Origin: a virus
Length of the DNA: 64,000 bases
Strand: one strand, 5' to 3'
Virus record (IMG/VR): IMGVR_UViG_3300020477_000013
Span: 124,001 to 188,000 of that record
How positions within the stretch are numbered: position 1 is the stretch's first letter; each line of letters opens with the position of its first letter. The notes under the pieces are model-generated. The model had not been told where the DNA came from, made no database searches, and saw only the letters and a program-made list of their open reading frames with translations. The position numbers were made by a program, and so were the translations under genes. Positions 22,372 to 37,845 of the stretch are shown piece by piece.

Positions 22372-22527
22372 ATGTCTGACACAGTAGTTGCATCATTAAT
22401 AATTTTAGGATTCACTGTCACGGGTATATTTTTAGGTGCATGGTTTGCCGCACGGGGGTTCGAGAAATCGCTTATTCAAATGATGGATGATCCTGATGCA
22501 CCGTGGAACAAGGAGGATGAAGAGTGA
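22372..22527 (+). CDS. Small membrane protein
   Basis: A 51-residue protein with an N-terminal membrane helix (VVASLIILGFTVTGIFLGAW) and an acidic tail. AAGGGATG surrounds the start. It overlaps the first gene of the QLRRII array (GTGA). Together with 22195 it could form a two-component membrane unit. Confidence 0.6.
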   Translation: MSDTVVASLIILGFTVTGIFLGAWFAARGFEKSLIQMMDDPDAPWNKEDEE

Positions 22528-22898
22528 GAATTACAAAGAAGCAGCTAAGGCAAGTCATTCGTGAAGCAGTCGAAGAAAATGAGCTGCTCGGCCTTACGGG
22601 CCCATGGCATGAAGTCGTAGCTGCATACATAGCTCGTGGTCCCGGTAATGGGAGTCAGTCTGCAACAAATATGGTGCTTAATAAGTTACACATGGGCCCG
22701 GATCTATGGCGTATGCAAGAGGATGTTTTAGAGGACATGCTTATTGAGCTTGGGCCAAATGCCACCCCTGAACAAATTGATGCGGTGAGTATTGAATTTC
22801 GCGATGGCGTTCGTGCCAATAAGTGGATGCCTCAAACCAAGGAAGAAATGGAGGCTGATTGGGCCCGCGGCGGAAAGCCTCGTGCGGATTACAGTTAG
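22524..22898 (+). CDS. QLRRII-leader protein 1
   Basis: This first member of the array is a 124-residue protein with leader MRITKKQLRQVIREAVEENE and a helical body (WRMQEDVLEDMLIELGPNAT ...). It starts with GTG, and AAGGAGG lies 8 bases upstream. The leader is a basic amphipathic helix shared by more than 30 genes up to 37.8 kb, while the bodies are unrelated. The leader pattern and the Glu that follows resemble T4 capsid-targeting propeptides. The body's role is unknown. Confidence 0.75.
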   Translation: MRITKKQLRQVIREAVEENELLGLTGPWHEVVAAYIARGPGNGSQSATNMVLNKLHMGPDLWRMQEDVLEDMLIELGPNATPEQIDAVSIEFRDGVRANKWMPQTKEEMEADWARGGKPRADYS

Positions 22899-22906
22899 GG
22901 TGTTAG

Positions 22907-23152
22907 ATGAAAATTACACGTAGCCAACTTAGAAGAATCATCCGAGAAGCGATATTGCTAGAAGACAAAGAGGGAAAAGGAAAATGCCCTGATGATGGTT
23001 GTGTTCAAAAGCGCTCGAAGGGCTGGGTTATTATCTCTAACAAGACCGGAGAATGCTGGGGCAGAAGTAAGAAGCAGGGAGGCGAGTGTACATATTATGG
23101 CTCAAGGGAAAAAGCTGAAGCAGCGCTTGGCGCTTATCATGCAGGTGGGTAA
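22907..23152 (+). CDS. QLRRII-leader protein 2, Cys-containing body
   Basis: 81 residues, leader MKITRSQLRRIIREAILLED. The body contains four Cys (CPDDGC, ECW, ECTYYG) around strands KGWVIISNKTGECWG, then SREKAEAALGAYHA. The last element resembles a small domain common in marine phages, where a short beta hairpin precedes a helix with an EAEAxLxAxHA pattern. The cysteines could bind a metal. It ends exactly one base before the next start. Confidence 0.72.
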   Translation: MKITRSQLRRIIREAILLEDKEGKGKCPDDGCVQKRSKGWVIISNKTGECWGRSKKQGGECTYYGSREKAEAALGAYHAGG

Positions 23153-23401
23153 ATGAAGATGTCTGGCAAACAGTTGAGAAAGATTATTCGAGAGACGTTA
23201 TCATTGGACCTTGAGGTTGGTGACGTAATTCTAACAGGCCGATTCAAGAATAAGCGCACTGTCGTTAGGGAACTAGGGACTGATGATCTAGGTCAACCAA
23301 CCGTTAACGGGATGAAGGTCTTATCTTTTCGCATTGAAAAACTGATGCCAAAAAGTAAGTGGAGTAAGAAGACACTGGAAGAGATAGGGGAAGACGAATG
23401 A
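23153..23401 (+). CDS. QLRRII-leader protein 3, SH3/KOW-like body
   Basis: 82 residues, leader MKMSGKQLRKIIRETLSLD. The body (LEVGDVILTGRFKNKRTVVR, later GQPTVNGMKVLSFRIEKL) looks like a small beta barrel seen in T4-like marine phages, where a GDxVLxGKFKNK motif also follows a short leader peptide. That parallel supports the idea that the leader is interchangeable. The function is unknown. Confidence 0.7.
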   Translation: MKMSGKQLRKIIRETLSLDLEVGDVILTGRFKNKRTVVRELGTDDLGQPTVNGMKVLSFRIEKLMPKSKWSKKTLEEIGEDE

Positions 23402-23685
23402 GAATAGGGTTATCAAATTTGAGAATGTTGATTAGAGAGGCATTGGAGGTGTCTGATGAAGAGATTAGGGCATTTCTTTCTGACCAGGCTGCAACTTACC
23501 ATCAGGACCACAGTCTAGACATTGATGGTGATGAAATTCCGGATGCATCCGCTATTCGTGAACTACTGCAGGCCGATTTTCTAAATAACTTTAGTCATAT
23601 CTCAATTAGCGATTATGCTGATCTTATTGACAGGTTATCTGTGATGCCTGACGTCAAGTGGTCACGCCCTGTGATGATGGTGTAG
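23398..23685 (+). CDS. QLRRII-leader protein 4 (divergent leader)
   Basis: 95 residues, leader MRIGLSNLRMLIREALEVSD, so only the LRxxIREA core is kept. The body is acidic and helical (IPDASAIRELLQADFLNNFS). The start overlaps the previous stop by four bases. Unknown function. Confidence 0.65.
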   Translation: MRIGLSNLRMLIREALEVSDEEIRAFLSDQAATYHQDHSLDIDGDEIPDASAIRELLQADFLNNFSHISISDYADLIDRLSVMPDVKWSRPVMMV

Positions 23686-23692
23686 GTTATAG

Positions 23693-23989
23693 ATGTGGCC
23701 GAAGGGGTATCAACTTAAATGGTTTCGAAGGGAACTTCCAAGAAAAGAAGGTCCTGCCCCGCCTATGAGACCCGGTTTCGGCCAAACACCCCTTAACGTA
23801 ATACAGGATGGTGATAAATTTTACGTTGGGACCTACTTTGTTTTACCTGATGGGTCTAGGAAACCATATACAGTTGAGAGTCAATATTTCTCCACGGAGA
23901 AAGAAGCCAAAGTTGTATTGTCAAGAATGACAGGCGGAAAAATGAAGGAGTCACTACTGCGTGCTTATGTAAGAGAGATGCTGGGCTAA
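23693..23989 (+). CDS. Small protein with leader-like helix at the C-terminus
   Basis: 98 residues. It has no N-terminal leader. Instead it ends MKESLLRAYVREMLG, a helix of the same type as the array leader. The body (NVIQDGDKFYVGTYFVLPDG ... VESQYFSTEKEAKVVLSRM) resembles a small beta-alpha domain. Its place inside the array and the relocated helix suggest module shuffling. The stop TAA abuts the next ATG. Confidence 0.6.
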   Translation: MWPKGYQLKWFRRELPRKEGPAPPMRPGFGQTPLNVIQDGDKFYVGTYFVLPDGSRKPYTVESQYFSTEKEAKVVLSRMTGGKMKESLLRAYVREMLG

Positions 23990-25147: not shown

Positions 25148-25269
25148 ATAAACCCCCCCGCAACAACCGGGATTTTAATTCATTTTTAAGTGTCCCTTAT
25201 CGGTTGCATGTGATATTTATTTGCAGAATTGAATTATGGTATTCATATGATATCATCTAGGGGTTTAAA

Positions 25270-25377
25270 ATGAGTGAATTTTTATGGGGCTTTGTTGCGG
25301 GTGCGGTTGCTTCTCCTTTTGCATGGGAAGGCCTTAAGTGGTGCTTCCGAAAGGTGAAGGAAGCCACTAGTAAATAA
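25270..25377 (+). CDS. 35-residue membrane protein of a marine-phage type
   Basis: MSEFLWGFVAGAVASPFAWE followed by GLKWCFRKVKEATSK: one membrane helix and a short basic tail. Very short proteins with a G-x-x-x-G-x-x-x-x-P-F-x-W-E-G-L-K-W pattern occur in many marine T4-like phages, with unknown role. It has a weak ribosome-binding site. TATGAT upstream (25246) is a candidate -10, but it lacks the usual phage box. Confidence 0.6.
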   Translation: MSEFLWGFVAGAVASPFAWEGLKWCFRKVKEATSK

Positions 25378-25443
25378 GTGGTATTATATTAAAATTTGCG
25401 TTAGCGTGGGATAATTGGTCTGGGCCCACGAGGGGAAAATAAA

Positions 25444-25704
25444 ATGAGACTATCAAAAAATCAATTAAGACAAATCATTCGAGAATCGCATAGTGAGTCG
25501 ATGTCGGGTGTGAATAGTCAGGTTAGAGAGTCACTCAGCTCTCACGAAGAAAAAGCTCAGGCGGACTCCTTCGCCATGTTTCCCGGTAACACTATCATGG
25601 ACTTGGAATCACTTCACGACTTGTGGTATGGTCGCTTTACAAGTGATGAAAACTTGATACTTGACCAGGCAATTGCACTTTTGAACAGGGAGCTCAGGGG
25701 GTAA
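25444..25704 (+). CDS. QLRRII-leader protein 5
   Basis: 86 residues, leader MRLSKNQLRQIIRESHSES. The body is acidic with a helical end (LHDLWYGRFTSDENLILDQA). GAGGGGA lies upstream of the start. It resumes the array after the glycosyltransferase and a 300-base gap that holds only the 35-residue gene. Confidence 0.7.
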   Translation: MRLSKNQLRQIIRESHSESMSGVNSQVRESLSSHEEKAQADSFAMFPGNTIMDLESLHDLWYGRFTSDENLILDQAIALLNRELRG

Positions 25705-25706
25705 TA

Positions 25707-25988
25707 ATGCAAATATCACGTAAGAAGTTAAGAAGAATCATTAGGGAATCGTTGCTTCAAGAGTACGGTCCTGAATCTCGTGGGGAGCCCGGGCACAGAG
25801 GTGCAGATGGAAACTGGGTCGATCCTGGCATGGATGGTTACAATCCATACAAGGACAAGTCTCTGGCACCTGGTAACGGTTGGCCCCCTGAAGAGAGATC
25901 GGCAGCTATTAGAGCGTATACAGGCAGAGATGGTTACATTGCCAACTCTCAAGTGGACAAAAGCTGGGTGCATCCAGCATTTCGATAA
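25707..25988 (+). CDS. QLRRII-leader protein 6, Gly/Pro-rich body
   Basis: 93 residues, leader MQISRKKLRRIIRESLLQEY, giving a possible L-Q-E cut. The body is rich in Gly, Pro and aromatic residues (GADGNWVDPGMDGYNPYKDK) and probably lacks a regular fold. AGGGGG is upstream. Unknown function. Confidence 0.68.
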   Translation: MQISRKKLRRIIRESLLQEYGPESRGEPGHRGADGNWVDPGMDGYNPYKDKSLAPGNGWPPEERSAAIRAYTGRDGYIANSQVDKSWVHPAFR

Positions 25989-25999
25989 GAGATAAACTA

Positions 26000-26362
26000 G
26001 TGAAAATCACAAAACGACAACTCAGACGAATTATTCGGGAATCAATCACGGGCACGACAATTTATGTCGAGAAGAGTCCATACGGTGGGACTATGATTGA
26101 AGATGAGAATGGCGAATATCTTTCTGTGGGAGAGATGGTAAAATCCTTATTAGACTCAGGTGAATCAGACTTCTTTCACGATGCTTTAGGGCTACAGGAA
26201 CTCATGGCAGCCCATAGCCGTGGTGTTCAGGGTGGTATGCAGAAGTGGGACTCTGATGTGTTCGAACAATACTACAGCCTAGACATGGATAAAATGATTG
26301 ACACATATGCCGGTGCTAATGGATTACAAGTCAAATACATCCCCATGGGAGAGGATTACTAA
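26000..26362 (+). CDS. QLRRII-leader protein 7
   Basis: 120 residues from a GTG start, leader MKITKRQLRRIIRESITGT. The body is acidic with mixed strands and helices (YGGTMIEDENGEYLSVGEMV ... DMDKMIDTYAGANGLQVKYI) and ends GEDY, an ending shared with protein 11 at 27261. Shared ends as well as shared starts suggest recombination between members. Confidence 0.7.
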   Translation: MKITKRQLRRIIRESITGTTIYVEKSPYGGTMIEDENGEYLSVGEMVKSLLDSGESDFFHDALGLQELMAAHSRGVQGGMQKWDSDVFEQYYSLDMDKMIDTYAGANGLQVKYIPMGEDY

Positions 26363-26363
26363 A

Positions 26364-26633
26364 ATGAAGATCACAAAAAGACAACTTAGAAGAATCATCA
26401 AGGAAGAGAAAGCGAGGCTTCTTATAGAAATGAATCCCGCTGTTGAGGAGGGAATCTCACGTGGCGTGCAGAATGGCATTTGGGGCTGGCTCGAGCGCGA
26501 GTTTGCCCAAGACATGACCGGTGAAGATGTGTGGAATAATCCTACATACACCGAGAGTATTGCACACGCATTGGAAACAATTGCCAAGGAAGTACGGACC
26601 GCAGGGACGCAAGAAGGTACGTACGGGGGGTAA
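26364..26633 (+). CDS. QLRRII-leader protein 8
   Basis: 89 residues, leader MKITKRQLRRIIKEEKARLL then Ile-Glu. The start at 26364 is the ATG beginning the leader; a longer frame-mate would overlap the previous gene. The body is helical (EEGISRGVQNGIWGWLEREF). Unknown function. Confidence 0.7.
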   Translation: MKITKRQLRRIIKEEKARLLIEMNPAVEEGISRGVQNGIWGWLEREFAQDMTGEDVWNNPTYTESIAHALETIAKEVRTAGTQEGTYGG

Positions 26634-26634
26634 A

Positions 26635-26922
26635 ATGAAGATCACAAAAAGACAGCTCAGACGAATTATCAAAGAACAACTTCAACTTCTTAGTGAGGAG
26701 GGCTATGATAGTTATCGTGATAGTAGGCGAGAGGCTGGCTATGGTGGAACAACTTGGAAGAGTAAGCAAGACTATAGGCGTCGAAGAGCCCAACAGATAA
26801 AGTATGCAGAGGAAGTCACAGCCCAGGGAAGAGAAGATGCCCTTGCCGGCCGGCCTAAAGACGCTAGCATAGGGCACCTTGCGTACCATGAGGCATACGA
26901 CGAAGCGCTCAAGGAAGCATGA
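26635..26922 (+). CDS. QLRRII-leader protein 9
   Basis: 95 residues, leader MKITKRQLRRIIKEQLQLLS then Glu-Glu (L-S-E site). The body is Arg/Tyr-rich and helical, with a C-terminal pattern TAQGREDALAGRPKD ... AYDEAL loosely recalling ribosome modulation factor-type repeats of Gly and Ala helices. It starts one base after the previous stop. Confidence 0.7.
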   Translation: MKITKRQLRRIIKEQLQLLSEEGYDSYRDSRREAGYGGTTWKSKQDYRRRRAQQIKYAEEVTAQGREDALAGRPKDASIGHLAYHEAYDEALKEA

Positions 26923-26923
26923 T

Positions 26924-27259
26924 ATGAAGATCACAAAGAGACAACTCAGAAGAATCATCAAGGAAGAGCTTCAATCCATGACAGTTGACAAGCGAGATCA
27001 GCTTATGGATGCGCTGGAAGATAAATACGGACTCCAGGTAAGAACTACCGAAGAGTTTGGTTCTGGTCCTGGGGGCGTATGGATTGCTGCTGAGTCAGCT
27101 TCCGCACAAACGCCGGACGGCTTACCACTGTTTGACTACTACTTGGACATGGATCCATATGAATTTGGTGTACACCCGGAATTTTCAAGGTTTATTGCAC
27201 CTTATGGTTTTTATGCAGAGTGGAATGATCCAGGAACATTAATGTTGTGGAGGGTGTAA
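26924..27259 (+). CDS. QLRRII-leader protein 10
   Basis: 111 residues, leader MKITKRQLRRIIKEELQSM. The body is an alpha/beta unit (RDQLMDALEDKYGLQVRTTE ... FIAPYGFYAEWNDPGTLMLW) with a YGxYAEWxDxGTxML ending that resembles domains in other marine phage proteins. Unknown function. Confidence 0.7.
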   Translation: MKITKRQLRRIIKEELQSMTVDKRDQLMDALEDKYGLQVRTTEEFGSGPGGVWIAAESASAQTPDGLPLFDYYLDMDPYEFGVHPEFSRFIAPYGFYAEWNDPGTLMLWRV

Positions 27260-27260
27260 C

Positions 27261-27608
27261 ATGAGAATCACAAAGAGGCAGCTAAGAAGAATTATTAAGG
27301 AAGAAAAGGCGAAGCTGATAAGAGAGTCATTTTCGCCTGATTCTATCGCTGAGTTTGATAGGGAAATTAATTCCAATCTGGAACAGGGGAAGTTGTACCT
27401 TGACATGGGTGATACTTCGATGGCTCAGATGTACGATGATGATGCATATTCTTTAGAGGCCATTAGAGATATGGCCATTCAAGACAGGGCAGCTGGTGAG
27501 CCTATGGGATCAAATTCACTTCGTAATTTGGTTAGCCGTTTAGACACAGCCGCACGTGAAAAGATACCAGACGACTTCTATTACTGGATAATCGGCGAGG
27601 ATTATTAA
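27261..27608 (+). CDS. QLRRII-leader protein 11
   Basis: 115 residues, leader MRITKRQLRRIIKEEKAKLI then Arg-Glu. The body is a helical bundle (NLEQGKLYLDMGDTSMAQMY, SLRNLVSRLDTAAREKIPDD) and ends GEDY. One base separates it from each neighbour. Unknown function. Confidence 0.7.
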   Translation: MRITKRQLRRIIKEEKAKLIRESFSPDSIAEFDREINSNLEQGKLYLDMGDTSMAQMYDDDAYSLEAIRDMAIQDRAAGEPMGSNSLRNLVSRLDTAAREKIPDDFYYWIIGEDY

Positions 27609-27609: not shown

Positions 27610-28068
27610 ATGAGAATCACAAAGAGGCAGCTAAGAAGAATCATTAGGGAAGCTTATTATGAAGATGCCGAAGACCGAGGATATTTTGACCATGTTGGTG
27701 GTCTCAACGCTCCTAAGCATCCTGATAATGAAGAGTATATGGCTGGGTGGGATCAATCCATCATAGATGATAAGGTCTCCGCGGACCACAAGGCAGAGAA
27801 GGAGATGGAAAGAAGGCTCCAGCCAGCACGCGATAGAACAATGGCAACACTCGATAGATCACGTCAGGAACTGGAGAGTGCCCATGGAATCACTGACGAC
27901 TTGGCCTACGAAGTTGAGATGGGAAGTCTCTTTCTGGCTAAGGAAGATGAGCTCCGTAAGCTGGCCAATGCAAGTGGTGCCCAAGGCCTAGCCGCTAAAA
28001 AGTTATTGGACATGACCCCCCAGCAACGTGCTGCATATAAAAGTTTAATGATTAGGACAACGATGTAG
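27610..28068 (+). CDS. QLRRII-leader protein 12
   Basis: 152 residues, leader MRITKRQLRRIIREAYYED. The body is a long charged coiled coil (KAEKEMERRLQPARDRTMAT) with a helical end (LAAKKLLDMTPQQRAAYKSL). It is among the larger array proteins and could be a structural or scaffold-like helix. Unknown function. Confidence 0.7.
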   Translation: MRITKRQLRRIIREAYYEDAEDRGYFDHVGGLNAPKHPDNEEYMAGWDQSIIDDKVSADHKAEKEMERRLQPARDRTMATLDRSRQELESAHGITDDLAYEVEMGSLFLAKEDELRKLANASGAQGLAAKKLLDMTPQQRAAYKSLMIRTTM

Positions 28069-28087: not shown

Positions 28088-28348
28088 ATGAAAATCACTA
28101 AGAGACAACTAAGAAGAATCATCAAGGAAGAGAAGGCTAAGCTTCTTAATGAGTATACGCCTGCCGATACCAGCGGGTCAGCTCCTTATTCTAGCCCTGC
28201 AAACATTGAAGAAGAAATAGCAGAACTCGAAAATGCTCTTAACTCTCTATACGTCGCAGGCAGAGCACTTCCTTTTCCGATGGATAGAAGAATCATGGAT
28301 GCTACCGAGATGATCGAGAGGGCGCTCAATATATTACAAGGAAAGTAA
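28088..28348 (+). CDS. QLRRII-leader protein 13
   Basis: 86 residues, leader MKITKRQLRRIIKEEKAKLL then Asn-Glu (L-N-E site). The body has a low-complexity linker (YTPADTSGSAPYSSP) and a helical hairpin (EEEIAELENALNSLYVAGRA). Unknown function. Confidence 0.7.
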   Translation: MKITKRQLRRIIKEEKAKLLNEYTPADTSGSAPYSSPANIEEEIAELENALNSLYVAGRALPFPMDRRIMDATEMIERALNILQGK

Positions 28349-28349: not shown

Positions 28350-28622
28350 ATGAAGATCACAAAGAGACAACTAAGAAGAATCATCAAAGAAGAGAAGGCC
28401 AGGCTCATGAATGAACAACCTACTCGCCGGCCTGACTATAAGTTTAATCAGGGCGTACAGGGTGAATATGCTCCCGGTGAATCAGTACTTGAGGATTTGA
28501 TGGTCGCGGTTGACGAAGCTATTGCCAACGCCACGGGTCAGATCGATCTAGATTTTCAAGATGGTCCGCTATCGTCTAGACAAGTTGTCAATTTTGTTAT
28601 TCGATCGTTACAGGAAAGATAA
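28350..28622 (+). CDS. QLRRII-leader protein 14
   Basis: 90 residues, leader MKITKRQLRRIIKEEKARLM then Asn-Glu. The body (ESVLEDLMVAVDEAIANATG ... VVNFVIRSLQER) is a short helical domain. It starts one base after the previous stop. Unknown function. Confidence 0.7.
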   Translation: MKITKRQLRRIIKEEKARLMNEQPTRRPDYKFNQGVQGEYAPGESVLEDLMVAVDEAIANATGQIDLDFQDGPLSSRQVVNFVIRSLQER

Positions 28623-28623: not shown

Positions 28624-29013
28624 ATGAAAATCACCAAACGACAACTTAGAAGAATCATCAAAGAAGAGAAGGCCAGGCTCATGTCCGAAGCCGACACTGG
28701 AATGCGACCAGGGCCAGATGGCATTATCGTCGTCGATCGTGGAAATATGGGGAGAGAAAAAGATCGTTGGCTGGTACTGTTTGAGGTGGAAGATATTGTA
28801 TCCCCCGAGCTATACACTTATCTCTCGCAAAGAAGCGATTGGAGAAAACTAACATCTGGCCCTAAGGCAACAGGCCCGACCGAAGAGGCAGCCCGGGCCA
28901 AGCTCAACAAGGCTATTGATAAGTTTCTGGCAATGCTATCTCAGAAAATCATTGAAGCACGAAACGAGGTCGGCATGCTGGACGAATTCAGGGCAAGCTT
29001 GGAGAAACTATAA
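28624..29013 (+). CDS. QLRRII-leader protein 15
   Basis: 129 residues, leader MKITKRQLRRIIKEEKARLM then Ser-Glu-Ala, close to the T4 prohead protease rule of a hydrophobic residue, any residue, Glu, then a small residue. The body begins with strands (DRWLVLFEVEDIVSPELYTY) and ends in a long helix. Unknown function. Confidence 0.72.
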   Translation: MKITKRQLRRIIKEEKARLMSEADTGMRPGPDGIIVVDRGNMGREKDRWLVLFEVEDIVSPELYTYLSQRSDWRKLTSGPKATGPTEEAARAKLNKAIDKFLAMLSQKIIEARNEVGMLDEFRASLEKL

Positions 29014-29014: not shown

Positions 29015-29299
29015 ATGAAAATCACAAAACGACAACTTCGAAGAATCATCAAAGAAGAGAAGGCCAGGCTTCTATCTGAGGTGACCCCCGGTGAACGTGA
29101 TGATGCTAAGAGGCTTGATGCAGAGTGGGCAGCAAGGGTAAATGCAGAGCAAGGTGCCCTCCAATCTCAAGCTGATATCTCACGTGAGTTAGGCGAATTA
29201 CATAATGCTATCGATCGATTGATTGACGTGATGGGCCGTGATGAAGTAGCCGCTGAGCTTGAGGGAATCGCAGAAGAGATTAGGATGGGAATGGTATGA
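29015..29299 (+). CDS. QLRRII-leader protein 16
   Basis: 94 residues, leader MKITKRQLRRIIKEEKARLL then Ser-Glu (L-S-E). The body is helical and charged (DISRELGELHNAIDRLIDVM). It overlaps the next gene by four bases. Unknown function. Confidence 0.7.
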   Translation: MKITKRQLRRIIKEEKARLLSEVTPGERDDAKRLDAEWAARVNAEQGALQSQADISRELGELHNAIDRLIDVMGRDEVAAELEGIAEEIRMGMV

Positions 29300-30951
29300 A
29301 AATCACAAAAAGACAACTCAGGCGAATCATCAAAGAAGAGAAGGCCAGGCTCATGGAGTATGGTGGCCGACCTTATGACCCAACTGTTCCTGGAGACTAC
29401 GAGCGATATCGTGATAATCCGACCGGCGACGCGCCTCCGGGTGGCGAGTGGGATGCAAAACTGGAGAAGATGGCCGATGAAGTCGGTGATCGAGCCGCCG
29501 GTGGATACGAACCATCGATGGACGGTTCTCCTGAAGCGTATGCTGACCATATCCTTGATTGGTATGCTGAAGACCCACCACCTCCGCTCGACGAGATGGA
29601 GGGTTTAGCGTTTGCACTGTCAAAGCCCTATTATAGAAAGGTGATTAAGGCCGCGGTTCTCGAGTACATCGGAATGATGACAGAAGGAAGGGCTTTACAT
29701 GAGCAATACCATTCCATGTCACCAGCCGGCAAATCCTTGTCTAGATCGATTAAAGGTAAATTCATGAGGATGTACCCCGACGCCTCGGTCGGGATTGACG
29801 GTCGTGAAGGGTGGATCACAGTCAATGGTAAAAAGGCTATCAATATGTCCCAGGCTAGCGGACGCGGAATGTCAGATGAAGAAATGATAGACAAGATGCA
29901 TGCAGTATATGCCCAGTCACAAGTAGATCCCGATATCCCAACCGCCGACACGAGAATGGATACGTTTATGGAGGGAAAAATGAAAATCTCAAAACGACAA
30001 CTCAGGCGAATCATCAAAGAAGAGAAGTCGAGGGTTTTATCTGAGCGCCGAATGCAAATTGCACCACGACGAAGGCGTAGCGTTCTGTTGACAGAGCGTA
30101 GTTTACGTTACGTAGCACGCCAGGCTATCATCGATCACAACCGAGGTGTTCGAATTGATGAGAATTGGTTTAGTGACGTAGCAAAGAAGGCCAAGGCCTT
30201 TGTCGCCGATAAAGTGGAAGACGCCCAGATAATGTTTAATGACTTCAAGAAGAAGCTCCCGGGTGGTATGGCAAAGCACATATCTAAGGCGTACAAGAAA
30301 ATGATCAGAGATGTCAAAGAGATGACAGACAAGGTCGATTTTGGGCTATACGATTTGAAAGCTATCGAATGGCAGCCAGATTCCATGGAGGAGGCACTAG
30401 AGAACGGCAAGATCGTCAAGAAGTTCTTTGATGACTTTAACATCGACATGGACATCAACGATCTAATGGGTCAAGAGAATTTTGACGCTGATACCGAGTA
30501 TGATCTCAATCAAAAATTTAAGAAATCCCTAAGGGATGTTATGCAACGAACAGAGTTTTACGTGTTCACTGATACTGAGATTGAGAAAACTAAAAAGAAG
30601 ATTGTCGACGCCCTAGGGGAAAAGAAAGGAAAGGCAGTTGCTGAAGAGATGGCAGAAGAGCTAGTTGCAACAATGAAAGAGTACGAAGAAGACGTGCTTA
30701 GTCGCGATTATGCTGATGAAATATCGCTGGCAGTCCGTGGGTATGCCAAGTCCTTAGCCTATGCTGCTGAGCAAGAGTGGGCAAAGAAGATGGATGAGAA
30801 AGAGCGTCGATTAGCTGGCCTAGAGCGTATGAAGATAGCTGATGCCAACGAAAAAGCAGCTTGGAAGAAGGAGGAGCGACGAAAAGATCGCGCCGCTAAG
30901 AAGAAGTACAGCACTGAGCCGGAGGACCGGACAAGGTCTAAGTGGAGCTAA
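29296..30951 (+). CDS. QLRRII-leader protein 17, fused double-leader protein
   Basis: 551 residues, by far the largest member. It begins with leader MKITKRQLRRIIKEEKARLM. A second full leader, MKISKRQLRRIIKEEKSRVL then Ser-Glu, starts at residue 229 (base 29980), preceded by GAGGG as if it were once a separate gene. Near residue 262 a further related element, LTERSLRYVARQAI, follows. The second part is a long helical, Lys-rich region (residues about 290-551). This is either an in-frame fusion of two neighbours or a polyprotein cut at the second leader. The internal ATG may also be translated on its own. Confidence 0.72.
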   Translation: MKITKRQLRRIIKEEKARLMEYGGRPYDPTVPGDYERYRDNPTGDAPPGGEWDAKLEKMADEVGDRAAGGYEPSMDGSPEAYADHILDWYAEDPPPPLDEMEGLAFALSKPYYRKVIKAAVLEYIGMMTEGRALHEQYHSMSPAGKSLSRSIKGKFMRMYPDASVGIDGREGWITVNGKKAINMSQASGRGMSDEEMIDKMHAVYAQSQVDPDIPTADTRMDTFMEGKMKISKRQLRRIIKEEKSRVLSERRMQIAPRRRRSVLLTERSLRYVARQAIIDHNRGVRIDENWFSDVAKKAKAFVADKVEDAQIMFNDFKKKLPGGMAKHISKAYKKMIRDVKEMTDKVDFGLYDLKAIEWQPDSMEEALENGKIVKKFFDDFNIDMDINDLMGQENFDADTEYDLNQKFKKSLRDVMQRTEFYVFTDTEIEKTKKKIVDALGEKKGKAVAEEMAEELVATMKEYEEDVLSRDYADEISLAVRGYAKSLAYAAEQEWAKKMDEKERRLAGLERMKIADANEKAAWKKEERRKDRAAKKKYSTEPEDRTRSKWS

Positions 30952-30955: not shown

Positions 30956-31219
30956 ATGAAAATCACCAAACGACAACTTAGAAGAATCATCAAAGAAGAG
31001 AAGGCACGAATCCTTAGGGAGATCCGAGATGAACGATCTCCCCAGGGCCGCCAATCTGCTCGTGGTCCCGCTAGCGCCTATGATCAGGGATATGAAGCAG
31101 GCACAAGGGGCGATCGATCTGAAATGCCACTCGAGCAATACGGTACACCTTTCTACGATGCATGGATGGAAGGCTGGGATGACGGACTAGCTTCATTCCA
31201 TGGTGGCGGAAGCTACTAA
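30956..31219 (+). CDS. QLRRII-leader protein 18, RMF-like body
   Basis: 87 residues, leader MKITKRQLRRIIKEEKARIL then Arg-Glu. The body (YDQGYEAGTRGDRSEMPLEQ, then Tyr-Gly-Thr-Pro and DAWMEGWDDGLA) matches the layout of ribosome modulation factor: Q-G-Y-x-A-G, a Pro-containing middle, then W-x-x-G-W. RMF silences 70S ribosomes by dimerising them. If the body is delivered or expressed early it could act on host translation. The match is short and by pattern only. Confidence 0.6.
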   Translation: MKITKRQLRRIIKEEKARILREIRDERSPQGRQSARGPASAYDQGYEAGTRGDRSEMPLEQYGTPFYDAWMEGWDDGLASFHGGGSY

Positions 31220-31376: not shown

Positions 31377-31631
31377 ATGAGAGTCACTAAGCGGCAACTA
31401 AGGCAAATCATTAGAGAAGCTCTTGAAACCGAAATGGAAGAGGGGGATGTACTTGGTGAGGAAGACCTTGAGGAGTACTGGACACCCGGCATAGATACTT
31501 CAGGCCGGGTAGATACCAGCAGGGCAGACAAAAAGCCTACAGGCCAGGAAATGGGTTGCAAAGATCGAAGGACCGGGAAGACTGTTGAGCCGTATTGGCA
31601 ACAGAGAATGGGAAAATGGGTGTGCCCATAA
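31377..31631 (+). CDS. QLRRII-leader protein 19
   Basis: 84 residues, leader MRVTKRQLRQIIREALETEM. The body is acidic then basic (GEEDLEEYWTPGIDTSGRVD ... DRRTGKTVEPYWQQRMGKWV) and ends CP. The start at 31377 begins the leader. The end overlaps the next ATG by one base. Unknown function. Confidence 0.68.
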   Translation: MRVTKRQLRQIIREALETEMEEGDVLGEEDLEEYWTPGIDTSGRVDTSRADKKPTGQEMGCKDRRTGKTVEPYWQQRMGKWVCP

Positions 31632-31901: not shown

Positions 31902-32150
31902 ATGAAAATCACGAAGCGACAACTCAGAAGAATCATCAAGGAAGAGAGGGCCAGGTTACTTAATGAAGGGCCTAACCTAGCGCTTCGTAATGCGATCATG
32001 GATACTTACGAGGGCGTGTATGGAGATCTAATCTCACAAGGTGCCGATCCATCGGTTGCACAAGATCGAGCTAGTGATGCAGTTATGTCAGAGGTTGAAG
32101 CCTGGTTGGATGCCGTAGGAATTCCACGCACATATGTGGGATTATCATAA
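31902..32150 (+). CDS. QLRRII-leader protein 21
   Basis: 82 residues, leader MKITKRQLRRIIKEERARLL then Asn-Glu-Gly, a good prohead-protease-like site. The body is helical (LRNAIMDTYEGVYGDLISQG). It overlaps the next start by one base. Unknown function. Confidence 0.7.
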   Translation: MKITKRQLRRIIKEERARLLNEGPNLALRNAIMDTYEGVYGDLISQGADPSVAQDRASDAVMSEVEAWLDAVGIPRTYVGLS

Positions 32151-32401
32151 TGAAAATCGCCAAACGTCAGCTAAGAAGAATCATCAAAGAAGAGAAAGCA
32201 CGATTGTTGACAGAGGATAGCATTAATGCTGCAGAAGATCGACTTTTCGCCGCTATAGATGACTTTGTACAAGTGGTAGATGAGGAACTAGGGTACGATG
32301 TTCCACTTCACGTGTTACGGCGGCAGGTTGATGATGTAGTTGGCTCAGCTTTTGCACAGTTTGAAGCGGACCAAAAAGCAGAGGATGACTTAAGATCATG
32401 A
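32150..32401 (+). CDS. QLRRII-leader protein 22
   Basis: 83 residues, leader MKIAKRQLRRIIKEEKARLL then Thr-Glu. The body is a helical bundle (AEDRLFAAIDDFVQVVDEEL). It overlaps the next gene by four bases. Unknown function. Confidence 0.7.
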   Translation: MKIAKRQLRRIIKEEKARLLTEDSINAAEDRLFAAIDDFVQVVDEELGYDVPLHVLRRQVDDVVGSAFAQFEADQKAEDDLRS

Positions 32402-32760
32402 GAATCACAAAACGACAACTCAGACGAATCATTAAAGAAGCCATGGAAGATGAGCCCATCCGCATGATACCAGGTGATTCATTCCCTGCAGATGCGCTTA
32501 AATCAAGGCGCTCCAGGAAACCCCAACCCTCCGGCGAATTCAGAGACACAATCGTTATGAGTCCAACCGGCGATACTCTCCTAGTCGGTGGGCAGGAAGT
32601 GGCTCTTCAAAATGCTGTAAAAGAACTCGAGATACAGTCAGGTCAGCCAGTGTCGGCCATACAAGCAGGTGATATCAACGCGAAGCTATTAAGACAGTAT
32701 GGTCAAGGATACGTTGAGCTTCCAATATCTTGGTCGCCCAATACAGGATGGAAATTCTAA
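32398..32760 (+). CDS. QLRRII-leader protein 23
   Basis: 120 residues, leader MRITKRQLRRIIKEAMEDE. The body (DTIVMSPTGDTLLVGGQEVA, ISAIQ-like helix, LPISWSPNTGWKF) is strand-rich, unlike most neighbours. It overlaps the next ATG by one base. Unknown function. Confidence 0.7.
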   Translation: MRITKRQLRRIIKEAMEDEPIRMIPGDSFPADALKSRRSRKPQPSGEFRDTIVMSPTGDTLLVGGQEVALQNAVKELEIQSGQPVSAIQAGDINAKLLRQYGQGYVELPISWSPNTGWKF

Positions 32761-33017
32761 TGAAAATCACGAAAAGACAGTTAAAGCAGATCATCAAAGA
32801 AGAGAAGGCAAAGCTCAATGAAGGTGGATGGAGTAAGGGTCCAGAGCGCCTTAGGGAGATTAGGGAAGGAATGCTAGAGGCCTTATTCCAGTCCATCGAT
32901 GCTCAAGCCTCTTATGATCCAGAAGCCCTGGGAATTATTAAGTCTGAAATAATGATGCGAGGCCTAGATTTTAGAAAAGAGGCACTGGCTTACTTACGAG
33001 AACTAGAGGGTTATTAA
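32760..33017 (+). CDS. QLRRII-leader protein 24
   Basis: 85 residues, leader MKITKRQLKQIIKEEKAKLN then Glu-Gly (L-N-E-G, matching the T4-type cleavage rule). The body is helical (LREIREGMLEALFQSIDAQA). Unknown function. Confidence 0.7.
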   Translation: MKITKRQLKQIIKEEKAKLNEGGWSKGPERLREIREGMLEALFQSIDAQASYDPEALGIIKSEIMMRGLDFRKEALAYLRELEGY

Positions 33018-33018
33018 A

Positions 33019-33333
33019 ATGAAAATTACAAAGAGACAGCTTAGAAGAATCATCAAGGAAGAGAAAGCCCGGCTTGTAAATGAGATCCAGGCTGAGAAAG
33101 ACGTCAGGCAGCTGACCCTTAATCAAGGTGAGGTTGATAAGGTTGAGGCCATGCGATCAGCACTGGATAGAATGTTCTTTGAGTATCGAAAAATAAATTC
33201 AATACCCCCACAATGGCTTGATGACTCCAACGGGTTCGGTACATCCAGGTATGATAAACTAGAAGAACTGTTGATGGATGCAGGCGAAGAAATGTCAGAC
33301 TTGGTACATGATATGAAGAAAGTGGGAATATAA
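33019..33333 (+). CDS. QLRRII-leader protein 25
   Basis: 104 residues, leader MKITKRQLRRIIKEEKARLV then Asn-Glu. The body is a helical domain (VEAMRSALDRMFFEYRKINS ... LEELLMDAGEEMSDLVHDMK). It is followed by a hairpin at 33344. Unknown function. Confidence 0.7.
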   Translation: MKITKRQLRRIIKEEKARLVNEIQAEKDVRQLTLNQGEVDKVEAMRSALDRMFFEYRKINSIPPQWLDDSNGFGTSRYDKLEELLMDAGEEMSDLVHDMKKVGI

Positions 33334-33343
33334 GACTCAGAGT

Positions 33344-33364
33344 GAGGTTCAAAGGTTGAACCTC
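33344..33364 (+). other. Intergenic hairpin in the array
   Basis: GAGGTTCAA (33344-33352) and TTGAACCTC (33356-33364) form a perfect 9-bp stem with a 3-base loop. No T-run follows, so it more likely stabilises or processes mRNA than terminates transcription. Confidence 0.6.
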
Positions 33365-33413
33365 GTATCATTAACAAAAAATTATCTATATTAAAAAATG
33401 GGAGGCACCTAAA

Positions 33414-33995
33414 ATGATAGTTACAAAGAGACAATTGAGAAGAATAATCAAGGAAGAAGCACGCCGTCTAATGGAGGACAGCATTGACAGTGAGCTTGAT
33501 CACCTTAAGAAAAATGTGCATGATGATATTGAGCACATTCGTGATCTAAAAGATGACATTAGGGATGATCATGAAGAAGAGCTTCGTGCGGAGAAGGCAC
33601 GCAAGGATGAGTCGCGCCGGAGGACAAAGTCTAAGCTACGCAGGATTGTTCGTCGTACTATCAACGAAGAGCATGCAGACTGGGGCATGGGAAAAGATGA
33701 AGATTCACGTACACACCATGGCGAAAAAGATTATACAGGCCATAAGGGTGATCATTCAAAGACTCATCCAGGTGAATTAGACTATGAAGATGATGCAGCT
33801 GGAAGAGCACATGATGCAATTGCTGCTATTCATGACCTGGCATCTGCAGCAGGCGTTGAGCTTGATGTTACGGCCGGGGATGCTCTTGACAGTGAGGATG
33901 CAACGATCATCGCTATGGAAGGCAGGCTCCGCCGACAGGCACTAAAGAAGCGTATTAAAAGATTGACGAGGGATGCGATCCGCCGAGGACTATAA
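33414..33995 (+). CDS. QLRRII-leader protein 26 with second leader-like helix
   Basis: 193 residues, leader MIVTKRQLRRIIKEEARRLM then Glu-Asp. A charged coiled coil follows, then RTKSKLRRIVRRTINEEHAD at about residues 70-89, a second copy of the leader type with an I-N-E site. After a His-rich linker (THHGEKDYTGHKGDHSKTHP) a helical domain ends with KKRIKRLTRDAIRRGL. It has GGGAGG upstream. It may be cut in two places if the leader is a protease target. Confidence 0.7.
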   Translation: MIVTKRQLRRIIKEEARRLMEDSIDSELDHLKKNVHDDIEHIRDLKDDIRDDHEEELRAEKARKDESRRRTKSKLRRIVRRTINEEHADWGMGKDEDSRTHHGEKDYTGHKGDHSKTHPGELDYEDDAAGRAHDAIAAIHDLASAAGVELDVTAGDALDSEDATIIAMEGRLRRQALKKRIKRLTRDAIRRGL

Positions 33996-33996
33996 G

Positions 33997-34239
33997 ATGA
34001 AAATCTCAAAACGACAACTAAGAAGAATTATCAAAGAAGAGAAGGCCAAGTTACTAAAAGAGGCACCGACTCCTGAATTTGGTATATTCGATCAGTATTA
34101 CCTAGCTGATCTACTGATGGAAGAGGTCGAAAGTTTTATGGACCAGACAGGGGTGGATAGCTTCGGGCCGGCCGAGGTCGAGGATATGCGTAATGCAGTC
34201 ATGGCGGCACTTGATACGATTGTGAAACAGGTGAGCTAA
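33997..34239 (+). CDS. QLRRII-leader protein 27
   Basis: 80 residues, leader MKISKRQLRRIIKEEKAKLL then Lys-Glu-Ala. The body is helical and acidic (YYLADLLMEEVESFMDQTGV). Unknown function. Confidence 0.7.
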   Translation: MKISKRQLRRIIKEEKAKLLKEAPTPEFGIFDQYYLADLLMEEVESFMDQTGVDSFGPAEVEDMRNAVMAALDTIVKQVS

Positions 34240-34259
34240 ACCTAAGTGAGGTTAAAATT

Positions 34260-34652
34260 ATGAGAATTTCAAAACAACAATTAAGAAGAATCATCAAAGA
34301 AGAGCGCATGCGAATTCTTTATGAGGAAGTTGAAGAGATGGAGATCAAGGTAGACACTAATGAACACCACTGGCCTCGTGTAGAGTGGTCGAACATTGGT
34401 GAGCTTACCGATAAGTGGGCAGACCAAGAGAGAAATGCTTGGGATAAAGGTGATACGTCTATGCTTCCGGAGAAGCCGGAAGACGTCAGCATATCCGCAT
34501 GGGAAGCAGAGCATAAGGCTGCTTGGGAAGACCAGGTAGAAAATGCTGCATTAGATTTAGAGGCGGAGTTAACCACACGGATCCGCAGGCTAGCTCTTAA
34601 AACGATGCAGGAATTTACTGATTCGCTGATAGCGGGTGATTATTCTGCCTAG
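34260..34652 (+). CDS. QLRRII-leader protein 28
   Basis: 130 residues, leader MRISKQQLRRIIKEERMRIL then Tyr-Glu. The body is acidic and Trp-rich (NEHHWPRVEWSNIGELTDKW) with a helical end. GTGAGGTTAAA is upstream. Unknown function. Confidence 0.7.
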   Translation: MRISKQQLRRIIKEERMRILYEEVEEMEIKVDTNEHHWPRVEWSNIGELTDKWADQERNAWDKGDTSMLPEKPEDVSISAWEAEHKAAWEDQVENAALDLEAELTTRIRRLALKTMQEFTDSLIAGDYSA

Positions 34653-34675
34653 TTTGGTAAATGGGGGTGAAGCAG

Positions 34676-35506
34676 ATGCCTAAAGACAACCACAAGAAAT
34701 TTCTATCAGAACTTAAGGACTTATCACCGACAGAGCGCCGTGTTGCTTTAAAACTAGCACGCTCATCACGTCCTTCAGCGCGAAGGTATATAAGGCTTGT
34801 CTTAGAGAATAAGAAATCCTACAGCAAAGCCGGTACGGGTAGTATGTCTGCTAAGGAGGGTGATTCTCGGCACTCCGCCAAAAGAAAAGGGGATTATTTT
34901 CAAGCTAATGTCATCGCTGAGGGAATTTTTGGGTGGTCTGGCGAAAAGATAATGAAGAAGATTGTTGGTAGGAATTATGCACCCCCTATCCGAGTAGATG
35001 CTGCTGCAAAAAATCTCGAGGTTGCGCTTGGGCAGTATGCGACGTCTTATGCGAGGAAGGCTACGCCTCGCCGTGTATCTCCTGATGAATTTGCTCAAGA
35101 AGCAAAGGCAGGTTTAGCTAAGGGCCTGCGGCTATGTACTTCATTTGCAAGGCACGTTGCTACTTCTTTAGACGCTAAAACTGAACCTGCTCAAATCAAG
35201 AGGGAATCTACGGATATTCGGGAAAAAATTCTGCGTGCAAAGATTAGGGAGCTTCTTGTAAAAGAGCAAGTTGTTGGGTATACGGCGCCGCAAGAAAAAA
35301 AGTCTGATGGTGGGGGATACTTGAGCGTAGGTGACATGGGTGTTGATACAACACTCGGTGATGATTCAACGGACGAAGATCAGGCATCAGCTAACCAGGT
35401 AAGAAAGCTAACACAGCAACGCCAACAAGATTTAGATTCTGGTGATACAGTTGATGCAGAAAATGTGGGTCAACAGCTTGGCATGGCCAGGAAGATGAGA
35501 GGGTAA
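34676..35506 (+). CDS. Hypothetical array-associated protein
   Basis: 276 residues, no N-terminal leader. The start at 34676 has GGGGTG upstream; ATG at 34661 is an alternative. A basic N-terminal region (LSPTERRVALKLARSSRPSA) precedes a helical domain. Near residue 190, IREKILRAKIRELLVKEQV resembles the array leader placed internally. The C-terminal third is acidic and disordered. It may be a larger scaffold- or core-like protein of the same system. Confidence 0.6.
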   Translation: MPKDNHKKFLSELKDLSPTERRVALKLARSSRPSARRYIRLVLENKKSYSKAGTGSMSAKEGDSRHSAKRKGDYFQANVIAEGIFGWSGEKIMKKIVGRNYAPPIRVDAAAKNLEVALGQYATSYARKATPRRVSPDEFAQEAKAGLAKGLRLCTSFARHVATSLDAKTEPAQIKRESTDIREKILRAKIRELLVKEQVVGYTAPQEKKSDGGGYLSVGDMGVDTTLGDDSTDEDQASANQVRKLTQQRQQDLDSGDTVDAENVGQQLGMARKMRG

Positions 35507-35507
35507 A

Positions 35508-36149
35508 ATGAGGGTCACACGAAAGCAACTAAGAAGAATTATTAGAGAAACATGGGCCGATGATGATAGAGATTTCTCTGCACCCCCAGGCGAAGAAGAC
35601 TACTACGCTCCCGGTGGAGAAGGTGAGCAGGTTACGGATACACAGCTCAAAAGAGGCTGGGGTTCATGGCTAGAAGAAAGAGGCCTGGAATTTGAAGACT
35701 TGGACGATCTCGCCCTCGCGGCCGGCGCACCTAACAGGACATGGCTAGATTCCATCCCTCCGCATGATGGTTTCATCGGCCCGTTGGATGTTGGGGTGTG
35801 GGTAAAAGATATACAGGCTGCTAAGGAAATATTGTCAACAAGAGCAGGAGACTACAGTTCGTCGCCACATGGTAAGAAGATGAATGAAGGCGTTGACCCC
35901 CGAGGCCTTAAGACATATCTCAAAAGCCTGGGGGTCAAGCGAAGCTTCGGCAACTTGACCGATGTTCTATCAACAGTGTTTAACGAATTCGAGGGTGATG
36001 CTGTAGACATGAAGGAAGAGGTTGAGATCGTTAATGGCATACGTGATGATAACGGGCAGGCGATCAATTGGCCCATTGAAGTCTACCAAGACATCTACGG
36101 GCTATATAAAAAGCACCGGCGGGGATTCCGCGCTCAAAGGAGATGGTAG
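35508..36149 (+). CDS. QLRRII-leader protein 29
   Basis: 213 residues, leader MRVTRKQLRRIIRETWADDD. The acidic linker is followed by two folded-looking segments (LKRGWGSWLEERGLEFEDLD and LKTYLKSLGVKRSFGNLTDV). It contains a strong hairpin at 35893-35938 in the mRNA. Unknown function. Confidence 0.68.
   Translation: MRVTRKQLRRIIRETWADDDRDFSAPPGEEDYYAPGGEGEQVTDTQLKRGWGSWLEERGLEFEDLDDLALAAGAPNRTWLDSIPPHDGFIGPLDVGVWVKDIQAAKEILSTRAGDYSSSPHGKKMNEGVDPRGLKTYLKSLGVKRSFGNLTDVLSTVFNEFEGDAVDMKEEVEIVNGIRDDNGQAINWPIEVYQDIYGLYKKHRRGFRAQRRW
35893..35938 (+). other. Stable hairpin inside a coding region
   Basis: TTGACCCCC (35893-35901) pairs with GGGGGTCAA (35930-35938), and AGGC (35903-35906) with GCCT (35926-35929). 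This 13-bp interrupted stem is strong for a coding sequence of this base composition. Confidence 0.55.
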
Positions 36150-36151
36150 TA

Positions 36152-36586
36152 ATGAAGATATCTAAAAAAAAGATTCAACAAATCGTAGCTGAAAATATAT
36201 TTGATTTGTTTATCGCACCAAAAAAAGTACATACGATGAAAATTTCCCAGCGGCAATTAAAAAGAATGATAAAAGAAGAGAAGGCAAAGCTCAAAGAAGC
36301 CGGCCCAAATTATCCCAAGCATGCATTTCCAGAGAAGACGCCGGCCAAACAAGGCGCTGCTATGACAACCTCTGGAGACCCACAGTCATACCATGACTTA
36401 GCGACACGCATGGATAAGATTACTTTATTGATTGAAGATCTTTCTATGGACTACGTCGATAGTGGCTGGTTGAAGGGAGGTGATCATGCTTCTTTGGCTA
36501 ATGATTTAGATAATCTCTTCTCTAACTCAGATAGGCTAGCTATGGCGGTTATGGGATTAGCACGATCAATGGGAGATATAGAGTGA
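36152..36586 (+). CDS. QLRRII-leader protein 30, tandem leaders
   Basis: 144 residues from 36152 (GGAG upstream). Two leaders lie back to back: MKISKKKIQQIVAENIFDLF, then at residue 29 (base 36236) MKISQRQLKRMIKEEKAKLK followed by Glu-Ala. The body is helical (LATRMDKITLLIEDLSMDYV). The tandem arrangement looks like a duplication or a leftover gene start. The stop overlaps the next GTG. Confidence 0.68.
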   Translation: MKISKKKIQQIVAENIFDLFIAPKKVHTMKISQRQLKRMIKEEKAKLKEAGPNYPKHAFPEKTPAKQGAAMTTSGDPQSYHDLATRMDKITLLIEDLSMDYVDSGWLKGGDHASLANDLDNLFSNSDRLAMAVMGLARSMGDIE

Positions 36587-36711
36587 GAATCACCCGCAGG
36601 CAACTAGGAATAATTATCCGGGAAGAGATAGAGAAGTCGGCCCCCTTTGGAAGTGGCATGGAGCAGGCTGATCTCGACCCTGAAGAGAAAGAACTGATTG
36701 GGCACACATGA
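36583..36711 (+). CDS. QLRRII-leader protein 31 (very short)
   Basis: 42 residues from a GTG start overlapping the previous stop. Leader MRITRRQLGIIIREEIEKSA, then an acidic tail ending GHT. It is almost all leader, so it may be a truncated member or a decoy. The downstream 60 bases hold no other clear gene. Confidence 0.55.
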   Translation: MRITRRQLGIIIREEIEKSAPFGSGMEQADLDPEEKELIGHT

Positions 36712-36771
36712 CTGACACATGCCAAGCTGAAGTCTTCAGCTTTACAGGAATCTTACGGGATACGAGGGAAT

Positions 36772-36921
36772 ATGGCAGGAAAGGTTGTTTGGCACTCTTT
36801 AAAGAAGGACGGGTCAATCACTAAATATGATATAAGGTTCGGGGGTAAGATCCTTAGGGGGATTCCTGCTGCCCTTGTGGAGTCAATTAAAGAAGTACAA
36901 CATGAACATGAGGAGAGATAA
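36772..36921 (+). CDS. Small hypothetical protein in the array
   Basis: 49 residues (MAGKVVWHSLKKDGSITKYD, then IRFGGKILRGIPAALVESIK and an acidic end). GAGGG lies just upstream. It has a strand-strand-helix pattern and no leader. The stop is followed after one base by the TTG of the next array gene. Confidence 0.55.
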   Translation: MAGKVVWHSLKKDGSITKYDIRFGGKILRGIPAALVESIKEVQHEHEER

Positions 36922-36922
36922 G

Positions 36923-37168
36923 TTGAAAATTTCAAAAAAACAACTAAGAAGAATTATAAAGGAAGAATTCGACAATATGCTGAGTGAGCCGACTCCGGAG
37001 GATGTTGTGCCGGTAGAGGATGCATGGGCAGGTGGGGAAGATTTGGTGATGCCGATAGACCACTCAGAGGCCGGCGGGTCTGAACCTGTAACTAGTTTTC
37101 CAGAGACGCTAGACATTGTCGACTCGATAACCGAAAGGGTAATGAGAAGATTAAGAGGGAATAGGTGA
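36923..37168 (+). CDS. QLRRII-leader protein 32
   Basis: 81 residues from a TTG start (AGGAGAG 5 bases upstream). Leader MKISKKQLRRIIKEEFDNML then Ser-Glu. The body is acidic (PTPEDVVPVEDAWAGGEDLV) and ends in a basic helix (SITERVMRRLRGNR). It overlaps the next gene by four bases. Confidence 0.68.
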   Translation: MKISKKQLRRIIKEEFDNMLSEPTPEDVVPVEDAWAGGEDLVMPIDHSEAGGSEPVTSFPETLDIVDSITERVMRRLRGNR

Positions 37169-37845
37169 GATATAAATTATCAGAATCATCTCTTCGTTAC
37201 ATTATTCGAAATCTATTAATAGAGAAGAGGTGGGTGGATCTTGGCGCAAAAAAAGGCGTTGTCATCGATCTCCACCCTTCTGATTTTGAGGATGAGGAGT
37301 GCCTTGAAGAACCATGTCCTGAGGGTGTCCGCGATTTAGATGATGAGATATTTGACCTGATTCAGAACGCATACAGGGATGTTGAGTTGGAACCTGGCAA
37401 GTTTGGAAATGCAAAAGTTAGGTCTCCCTCTGATTTACCTGGTGGGTATACTATAATGCAGGCCGCTGATTTAGATGATGATCCTGATCCGGATTTTTTT
37501 CGTGGTGGAAAGATGAGGGGTGGAAGGTACAAGCTAGGGATTGTGGGCCACGATGGTTCACAGGCTGCTATCGATAAATATCTTGAAGAAACAGCTAGCC
37601 AGCTAATGTCAGGGGCAATGGCTGAAATGTCTGGTAAGATAGCACATATCATGATTACAAGGTATGGTGTACCGGCAGTTACTTCCCATGCTGCTGTACA
37701 GTCAATGCTAGGTAAGGATGTATCATGGGTGGGACGCCATCCGGATGATCACTACGCCGACCGCTATGGTCCTGAGTACGAGGGATTTTATGATCGTGTT
37801 ATTGGGGGTAAGTCCCATATGAAAATTTTATTAGGGGGCACTTGA
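37165..37845 (+). CDS. Array-end protein with divergent leader, possibly GNAT-like
   Basis: 226 residues from a GTG start. The leader is divergent: MRYKLSESSLRYIIRNLLIE, keeping only LRxIIRxLLxE. The body (DEIFDLIQNAYRDVE, AADLDDDPDPDFF, GIVGHDG, ITRYGVPAVTSHAAV, MKILLG) resembles phage proteins sometimes labelled N-acetyltransferases, but no acetyl-CoA motif can be confirmed by eye. It closes the array. Confidence 0.55.
   Translation: MRYKLSESSLRYIIRNLLIEKRWVDLGAKKGVVIDLHPSDFEDEECLEEPCPEGVRDLDDEIFDLIQNAYRDVELEPGKFGNAKVRSPSDLPGGYTIMQAADLDDDPDPDFFRGGKMRGGRYKLGIVGHDGSQAAIDKYLEETASQLMSGAMAEMSGKIAHIMITRYGVPAVTSHAAVQSMLGKDVSWVGRHPDDHYADRYGPEYEGFYDRVIGGKSHMKILLGGT

Follow-up and report, generated by a model that had tools for sequence, protein, structure and literature searches.

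A run of small genes in a large viral genome, each beginning with nearly the same basic helix, likely codes for proteins packed inside the head of a T4-related phage. The run lies at 22524-37845 of the window, a 64,000-nucleotide stretch that covers bases 124001-188000 of the 201,585-base virus record IMGVR_UViG_3300020477_000013; the remainder of the record was read in overlapping pieces. In the explanation we favour, the shared start (here denoted leader A) would be a capsid-targeting propeptide. The leader helix would bind the prohead core during head building, a gp21-like protease would cut after a hydrophobic residue, any residue and Glu (phi-x-E) to free the body inside the head, and the freed bodies would be ejected with the DNA. 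A sequence-only reading of this DNA had proposed such a propeptide and cargo set, and it is supported by the protease, the capsid protein site, the enrichment of the cleavage site, leader swaps and fusion junctions described below. It is probable that, along with its DNA, the virus brings dozens of different proteins into the host cell, and their role as early anti-host effectors is a reasonable guess.

Leader A is a basic amphipathic helix of 14 residues ending in I-I-x-E14, often extended to about 22 residues ending in L-L-x-E. The leader sample comprised 39 leader open reading frames (ORFs) of this genome and 315 of other phages; a degenerate pattern search had turned up the contigs that supplied most of these. 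We searched residues 16-27 for [LIVM]-x-E and compared the counts with shuffled sequences. The site follows the helix in 28 of the 39 own leaders (7.7 expected) and in 210 of the 315 others (65 expected), as had been noticed by eye. Counted per body family, it is present in 130 of 182 (38 expected), and the control region, residues 40-51, gave 38 of 182. The enrichment depends on the hydrophobic residue as well as on Glu ([AGST]xE, [KRDENQ]xE and [LIVM]xD are not enriched), and per-position information drops to near background directly after the predicted cut. One point of the sequence-only reading had to be corrected: the 14-residue leader itself ends in phi-phi-x-E (I-I-K-E14), so that many members offer two possible cut positions, E14 and about E22. 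Residue 15 is Glu in 100 of the 130 families with the downstream site compared with 14 of the 52 without it (odds ratio 9, p=6e-10, per family). In families without the second site, Ala is the commonest residue at position 15, which creates at Glu14 an IxE|A site resembling those of T4 (vertical bars mark predicted cuts or junctions). We read this as two leader forms, a long one with a predicted cut near E22 and a short one with a predicted cut at E14 and a small residue after it; the covariation of residue 15 with the second site would be hard to explain without a protease.

A gp21-like protease was sought in the genome, as the earlier reading had suggested, and found in the head cluster (~25.8-37.6 kb of the record), which also encodes the large terminase, the portal (phrog_213, E=3.6e-78) and a gp23-like major capsid protein (phrog_138, E=3e-71). 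The head maturation protease, g016 (genome 30278-30880), matches phrog_207 (E=1.2e-50) and the T4 gp21 structure 5JBL (E=1.9e-16), with the serine motif ISSRGVGS aligned. Such a protease is present in 18 of 23 leader-bearing records, including 15 of 15 of at least 136 kb. The capsid protein has a predicted maturation site, QAGQVLRE|A; 15 relatives match [VILA]L[RK]E|[AQS] before the mature part, and the corresponding position reads VSE|A in the capsid protein of immuto and ISE|A in that of Mel-JY01. Its nearest named relatives are those of the Flavobacterium phages immuto, Microcystis phage Mel-JY01 and a 484-kb uncultured phage, more distant ones being in Rhodothermus phage RM378 and cyanophages. 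We assign the phage to a deep branch of the T4-like phages; a search of annotated phages for close DNA relatives found none.

About 32 consecutive small genes with one leader had been described. The number held, with 33 leader-bearing ORFs in the array, all on the plus strand and mostly stop-to-ATG adjacent (30 clear ones and divergent versions at 23398, 36583 and 37165), but they are not fully consecutive: stretches or genes without an N-terminal leader interrupt the array at 23693-25147, 34661-35506 and 36772-36921. Two of the 30 clear ORFs contain an extra in-frame leader copy (29980, 36236). The bodies are unrelated, as claimed, a single pair being alike at E<=1e-4 among the 47 leader ORFs of this genome. 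Further leaders occur at genome 83243-84382, 87602, 109447, 120452 and 167581 (window 43581). A simple gene caller gave 268 genes for the whole record, 261 of them on the plus strand, and often began genes within the leader; the starts used here come from the leader-ORF list instead. L-numbers denote sequence stretches examined, of which L002, L003, L005 and L008 are pieces of this genome and L085 is Mel-JY01. In window coordinates the features are:

22524..22898, +, leader ORF, GTG start, VRITKKQLRQVIREAVEENE
22907..23152, +, leader ORF, MKITRSQLRRIIREAILLEDKE; L016 has a body homologue behind a leader
23153..23401, +, leader ORF, MKMSGKQLRKIIRETLSLDLEVGD; homologous body behind leader B in L102 (..ILLE|SISLDVDVGD)
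23398..23685, +, divergent leader ORF, MRIGLSNLRMLIREALEVSDEE
23693..23989, +, small ORF with a leader-B-like helix at its C-terminal end (MKESLLRAYVREMLG), not at its start; a leaderless 385-aa ORF comes directly after it
25444..25704, +, leader ORF, MRLSKNQLRQIIRESHSESM
25707..25988, +, leader ORF, MQISRKKLRRIIRESLLQE; in L061 the body is part of a fusion, where it follows an internal leader
26000..26362, +, leader ORF, GTG start, VKITKRQLRRIIRESITG
26364..26633, +, leader ORF, ..KARLLIE|M
26635..26922, +, leader ORF, ..QLQLLSE|E
26924..27259, +, leader ORF, MKITKRQLRRIIKEELQSM
27261..27608, +, leader ORF, ..KAKLIRE|S
27610..28068, +, leader ORF, short form, ..RRIIRE|A
28088..28348, +, leader ORF, ..KAKLLNE|Y
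28350..28622, +, leader ORF, ..KARLMNE|Q
28624..29013, +, leader ORF, ..KARLMSE|A
29015..29299, +, leader ORF, ..KARLLSE|V
29296..30951, +, leader ORF of 551 aa; another complete leader lies within it (29980)
30956..31219, +, leader ORF, ..KARILRE|I; body like ribosome modulation factor (RMF)
31377..31631, +, leader ORF, MRVTKRQLRQIIREALETEMEE; body internal to a fusion behind PLLKE in L054
31631..31894, +, leader ORF, ..KAKLVSE|I
31902..32150, +, leader ORF, ..RARLLNE|G
32150..32401, +, leader ORF, ..KARLLTE|D
32398..32760, +, leader ORF, short form, ..RRIIKE|A
32760..33017, +, leader ORF, ..KAKLNE|G
33019..33333, +, leader ORF, ..KARLVNE|I
33414..33995, +, leader ORF; another leader-like segment lies internally (KSKLRRIVRRTINEE)
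33997..34239, +, leader ORF, ..KAKLLKE|A
34260..34652, +, leader ORF with 7 homologues, among which the linker is hypervariable but leader and body are conserved
34661..35506, +, 281-aa ORF without N-terminal leader; internal leader-like helix, then LLVKE
35508..36149, +, leader ORF, probable fusion
36152..36586, +, leader ORF, second in-frame leader at 36236
36583..36711, +, divergent leader ORF, GTG start, VRITRRQLGIIIREEIEKS
36923..37168, +, leader ORF, TTG start, LKISKKQLRRIIKEEFDNMLSE|P
37165..37845, +, divergent leader ORF, GTG start, VRYKLSESSLRYIIRNLLIE|K
43581..43775, +, isolated leader ORF outside the array, MKLTITELRALIRESFISIINE|G

Comparison between phages showed that a body which stands separately behind a leader in one phage can lie within a larger protein in another. 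The whole leader is kept at the junction in L093 (..VRQVVRGILTE|GIEFREVDSPL). In other cases the helix is lost and phi-x-E alone is kept, as at window 35508 (..GKKMNE|GVDPRGLKT), in L020 (..AVMKE|AFGGFSYARK) and at window 29296 (..ALHE|QYHSMSP). The junction KKMNE|GVDPRGLKT of window 35508 matches a separate leader protein of L054 (..SLLNE|GVDPRGLKT), and the internal junction ALHE|QYHSMSP of window 29296 matches one in L068, suggesting that ORF 35508..36149 is probably a fusion and the 551-aa ORF 29296..30951 probably a cargo polyprotein. In a strict test, with the junction position fixed by alignment and the site required within one residue, the site was found at 10 of 14 families (1.1 expected) and at 6 of 9 junctions scored without the helix; the numbers are small, and the cases that keep the helix are not independent of leader conservation. 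This test superseded a looser one with wide windows (20 of 27, 10.3 expected). Some cargo may be made as polyproteins whose parts are separated by phi-x-E sites. A 1104-aa ORF at genome 78330-81644 (L005:2330-5644) contains several internal leader-B-like helices, each followed by LSE, LVE or LKE, and is also a probable cargo polyprotein.

The same genomes carry a second leader, leader B (MKLLREYIRxLLxE), likewise of 14 residues and ending in phi-phi-x-E, with Glu as its P1 residue in 59 of 71. Homologous bodies stand behind leader A in some phages and behind leader B in others, for example window 23153 (..RKIIRE|TLSLDLEVGDVILTGRF) and L102 (..RQILLE|SISLDVDVGDVILTGRF), or L013:1832 and L089:5006, which are 68% identical over 187 residues. 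The best reading of these swaps is that leader B would do the same job as leader A and be exchangeable with it.

Searches of PHROGs and Pfam with 34 array proteins gave almost no matches, and a predicted function is recognisable in a minority of bodies only. For leader proteins from elsewhere, the matches are GNAT, exonuclease, HAD, DUF192, Zeta toxin, pentapeptide repeats and the polyA-polymerase head domain. The body at window 30956-31219 resembles RMF in sequence (PF04957, E=6.4e-6, 26.6 bits, below the curated cut-off of 27.9); its top three PDB matches are all RMF, though weak (E 0.33-0.5), and RMF-like motifs occur in four other leader proteins. By eye, g068 and its relatives contain ADP-ribosyltransferase (ART)-like motifs (VYRGM, GVSWSE, ENE). 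In an AlphaFold2 (AF2) model of the L095 relative of g068 (pLDDT 72), Foldseek found weak best matches to solved ART folds (E~0.2, prob~0.35), and a PDB sequence search for this assignment found nothing; motif and fold together are only suggestive of ARTs among several leader proteins, and do not establish them. In Mel-JY01, a hypothetical protein near the scaffold gene (L085:22429-23595) has a C-terminal half that looks ART-like by eye, as in T4 Alt. The mix of predicted functions fits host-takeover cargo, without proving it.

The sequence-only reading had also proposed looking for the leader on scaffold or core proteins, and core-like proteins with leader-like N-termini were found. Scaffolds share a C-terminal signature, RWxxLAG[IL], which in this genome is confined to g023 (the scaffold), g091 and g100, the latter two beginning with leader-like helices; L051:917 joins leader A to the same signature. 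Of 2600 ORFs just 23 contain RWxxLAGI, scaffolds for the most part; its presence on leader-like proteins may point to the prohead core. This bears on an explanation that we consider unlikely, in which the leader is an unremoved tag for another site (membrane, ribosome, DNA or a phage compartment) or a partner-binding domain, and the bodies are cellular rather than virion cargo. Basic amphipathic helices are frequent targeting and binding elements, and the enzymes among the leader-bearing relatives (GNAT, exonuclease, HAD, polyA polymerase head domain) are possibly cytoplasmic. However, such a tag predicts neither phi-x-E at a variable distance with loss of conservation exactly there, nor the covariation of residue 15, nor phi-x-E kept at fusion junctions that lack the helix, and the scaffold signature hints at the prohead core.

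We regard it as quite improbable that the leader proteins are extra scaffold or core parts, degraded at head maturation as assembly material and undelivered. T4 gp67, gp68 and most of gp22 are degraded in head maturation, the same protease would cut such proteins, the bodies here are acidic, and g091, g094 and g105 are acidic and core-like. Against this, the bodies vary widely from phage to phage, and folded enzyme families are among them, as would be expected of cargo more than of structural filler, and phi-x-E is enriched at the body boundary whereas residues 40-51 stand only at the shuffled level.

The leader is conserved as a peptide. For leader codons 2-14, pS is 0.735 (saturated) and pN 0.134; since synonymous sites are saturated while the protein is kept, the leader peptide is taken to have been long under selection. 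The DNA identity of the leader is 75% and that of the 25 bases upstream 32%, that is, not conserved, which together with the protein-level conservation indicates that the leader is not a recent DNA cassette or regulatory repeat. A recently duplicated DNA-level cassette or translation signal (recombination hot spot or coupling element), for which the tandem, tightly packed genes and the leader DNA identity could speak, is hardly credible, being contradicted by the substitution pattern and opposed by the unconserved upstream DNA and the in-frame leaders inside fusions. AF2 models set the leader apart from the body, and the model of the window 34260 family has a helical body that a disordered linker separates from the N-terminal helix. 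The degenerate pattern search detected the leader in dozens of other phage contigs; the sequence-only reading had proposed looking for it in other phages. A tblastn search of annotated phages with the leader peptide gave one weak match, the huge phage LR756508, which holds leader-like ORFs with phi-x-E, and a literature search with leader sequences found no paper.

Several observations weigh against the capsid-targeting propeptide. The second site is absent from about one third of leaders, the real cut would be either E14 or E22, both being predicted candidates, and 4 of the 14 junctions fail the strict fusion test. The portal and the capsid protein are themselves without the leader, and the core link rests on short motifs. 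By eye, with no alignment run, the leader is not similar to the T4 capsid-targeting sequence (CTS); the scaffold N-terminus here, LYxEAIAEAKxL, may be closer to it, as a lead only. No cultured phage is known with the leader, and although the homologous head genes are present in the cultured relatives immuto and Mel-JY01, the stretches of them that were read revealed no leader. The leader is also highly basic, with a mean net charge of +4. Finally, the bodies are mostly acidic (median pI 4.6), whereas T4 internal proteins are described as basic.

The anatomy of the array, in the features that sequence can test, is like that of the T4 capsid-targeting and internal-protein (IP) system, of which we consider it a candidate rather than a proven member. 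The T4 CTS has 10-19 residues, with targeting and processing residues mapped, and Alt and the IPs are ejected and act on the host (PMC9026906). Like IPI, IPII, IPIII and Alt, the array proteins have a short shared N-terminal propeptide, here a predicted one, in front of unrelated bodies, and both phages have a homologous protease, portal and major capsid protein and a hydrophobic-x-Glu cut, recognised here by pattern only. The array differs in having about 10 times more members, many in one gene run, other leader sequences (basic helices of 14 or 22 residues, in two exchangeable types), polyprotein forms and mostly acidic bodies. In SPN3US, two ejection-protein paralogues have an identical 15-residue start (PMC5694885). 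The phiKZ-like giant phages (SPN3US, phiKZ) resemble the array in their many internal head proteins with removed propeptides (predicted here), but several of those propeptides exceed 100 residues, the sites are A/S-x-E, and there is no large set of unrelated small bodies with one leader. Polyvalent proteins are multidomain effectors predicted to enter with phage DNA (Iyer et al. 2017, PMC5512222). They share predicted delivery of effectors with the array; unlike it, their domains lie in one chain, for which autoproteolysis by built-in peptidases was proposed, whereas the array has short bodies separated by sites that suit the head protease.

T4 injects a handful of internal proteins, IPI being a model for phage counter-defence. 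If our explanation is true, there are phages in this group with 30 or more injected internal proteins each, and two short packaging tags join the known T4 one. The leader would then flag cargo in metagenomic phage genomes by sequence alone and therefore offer a route to many uncharacterised early-infection proteins. More tentatively, a wide group of large T4-like phages might share a general modular cargo-loading system, with two interchangeable 14-residue tickets, protease-cut polyprotein cassettes and dozens of exchangeable bodies (ribosome-modulation-like, ADP-ribosyltransferase-like, GNAT, kinase, nuclease), all injected at the start of infection.

Other genes were also noticed. A ribosomal protein S21-like gene (phrog_21469, E=9e-10) lies between protease and scaffold at genome 33596-33820 (L002:14596-14820), and an S21-like gene is annotated at the matching place in Mel-JY01. 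In the head gene cluster, an ORF at genome 40065-41231 (L003:2065-3231) shows by eye a tubulin/FtsZ-like GGGGGTGS motif. The gene starts at window 7279-9150 and 14235-15281 resemble, by eye, DnaK and DnaJ. Many small genes at genome 177-198 kb (window from ~53423, plus L008) share the start M(K/R)VGDLVK, possibly a paralogous expansion of a different kind from the leader array.

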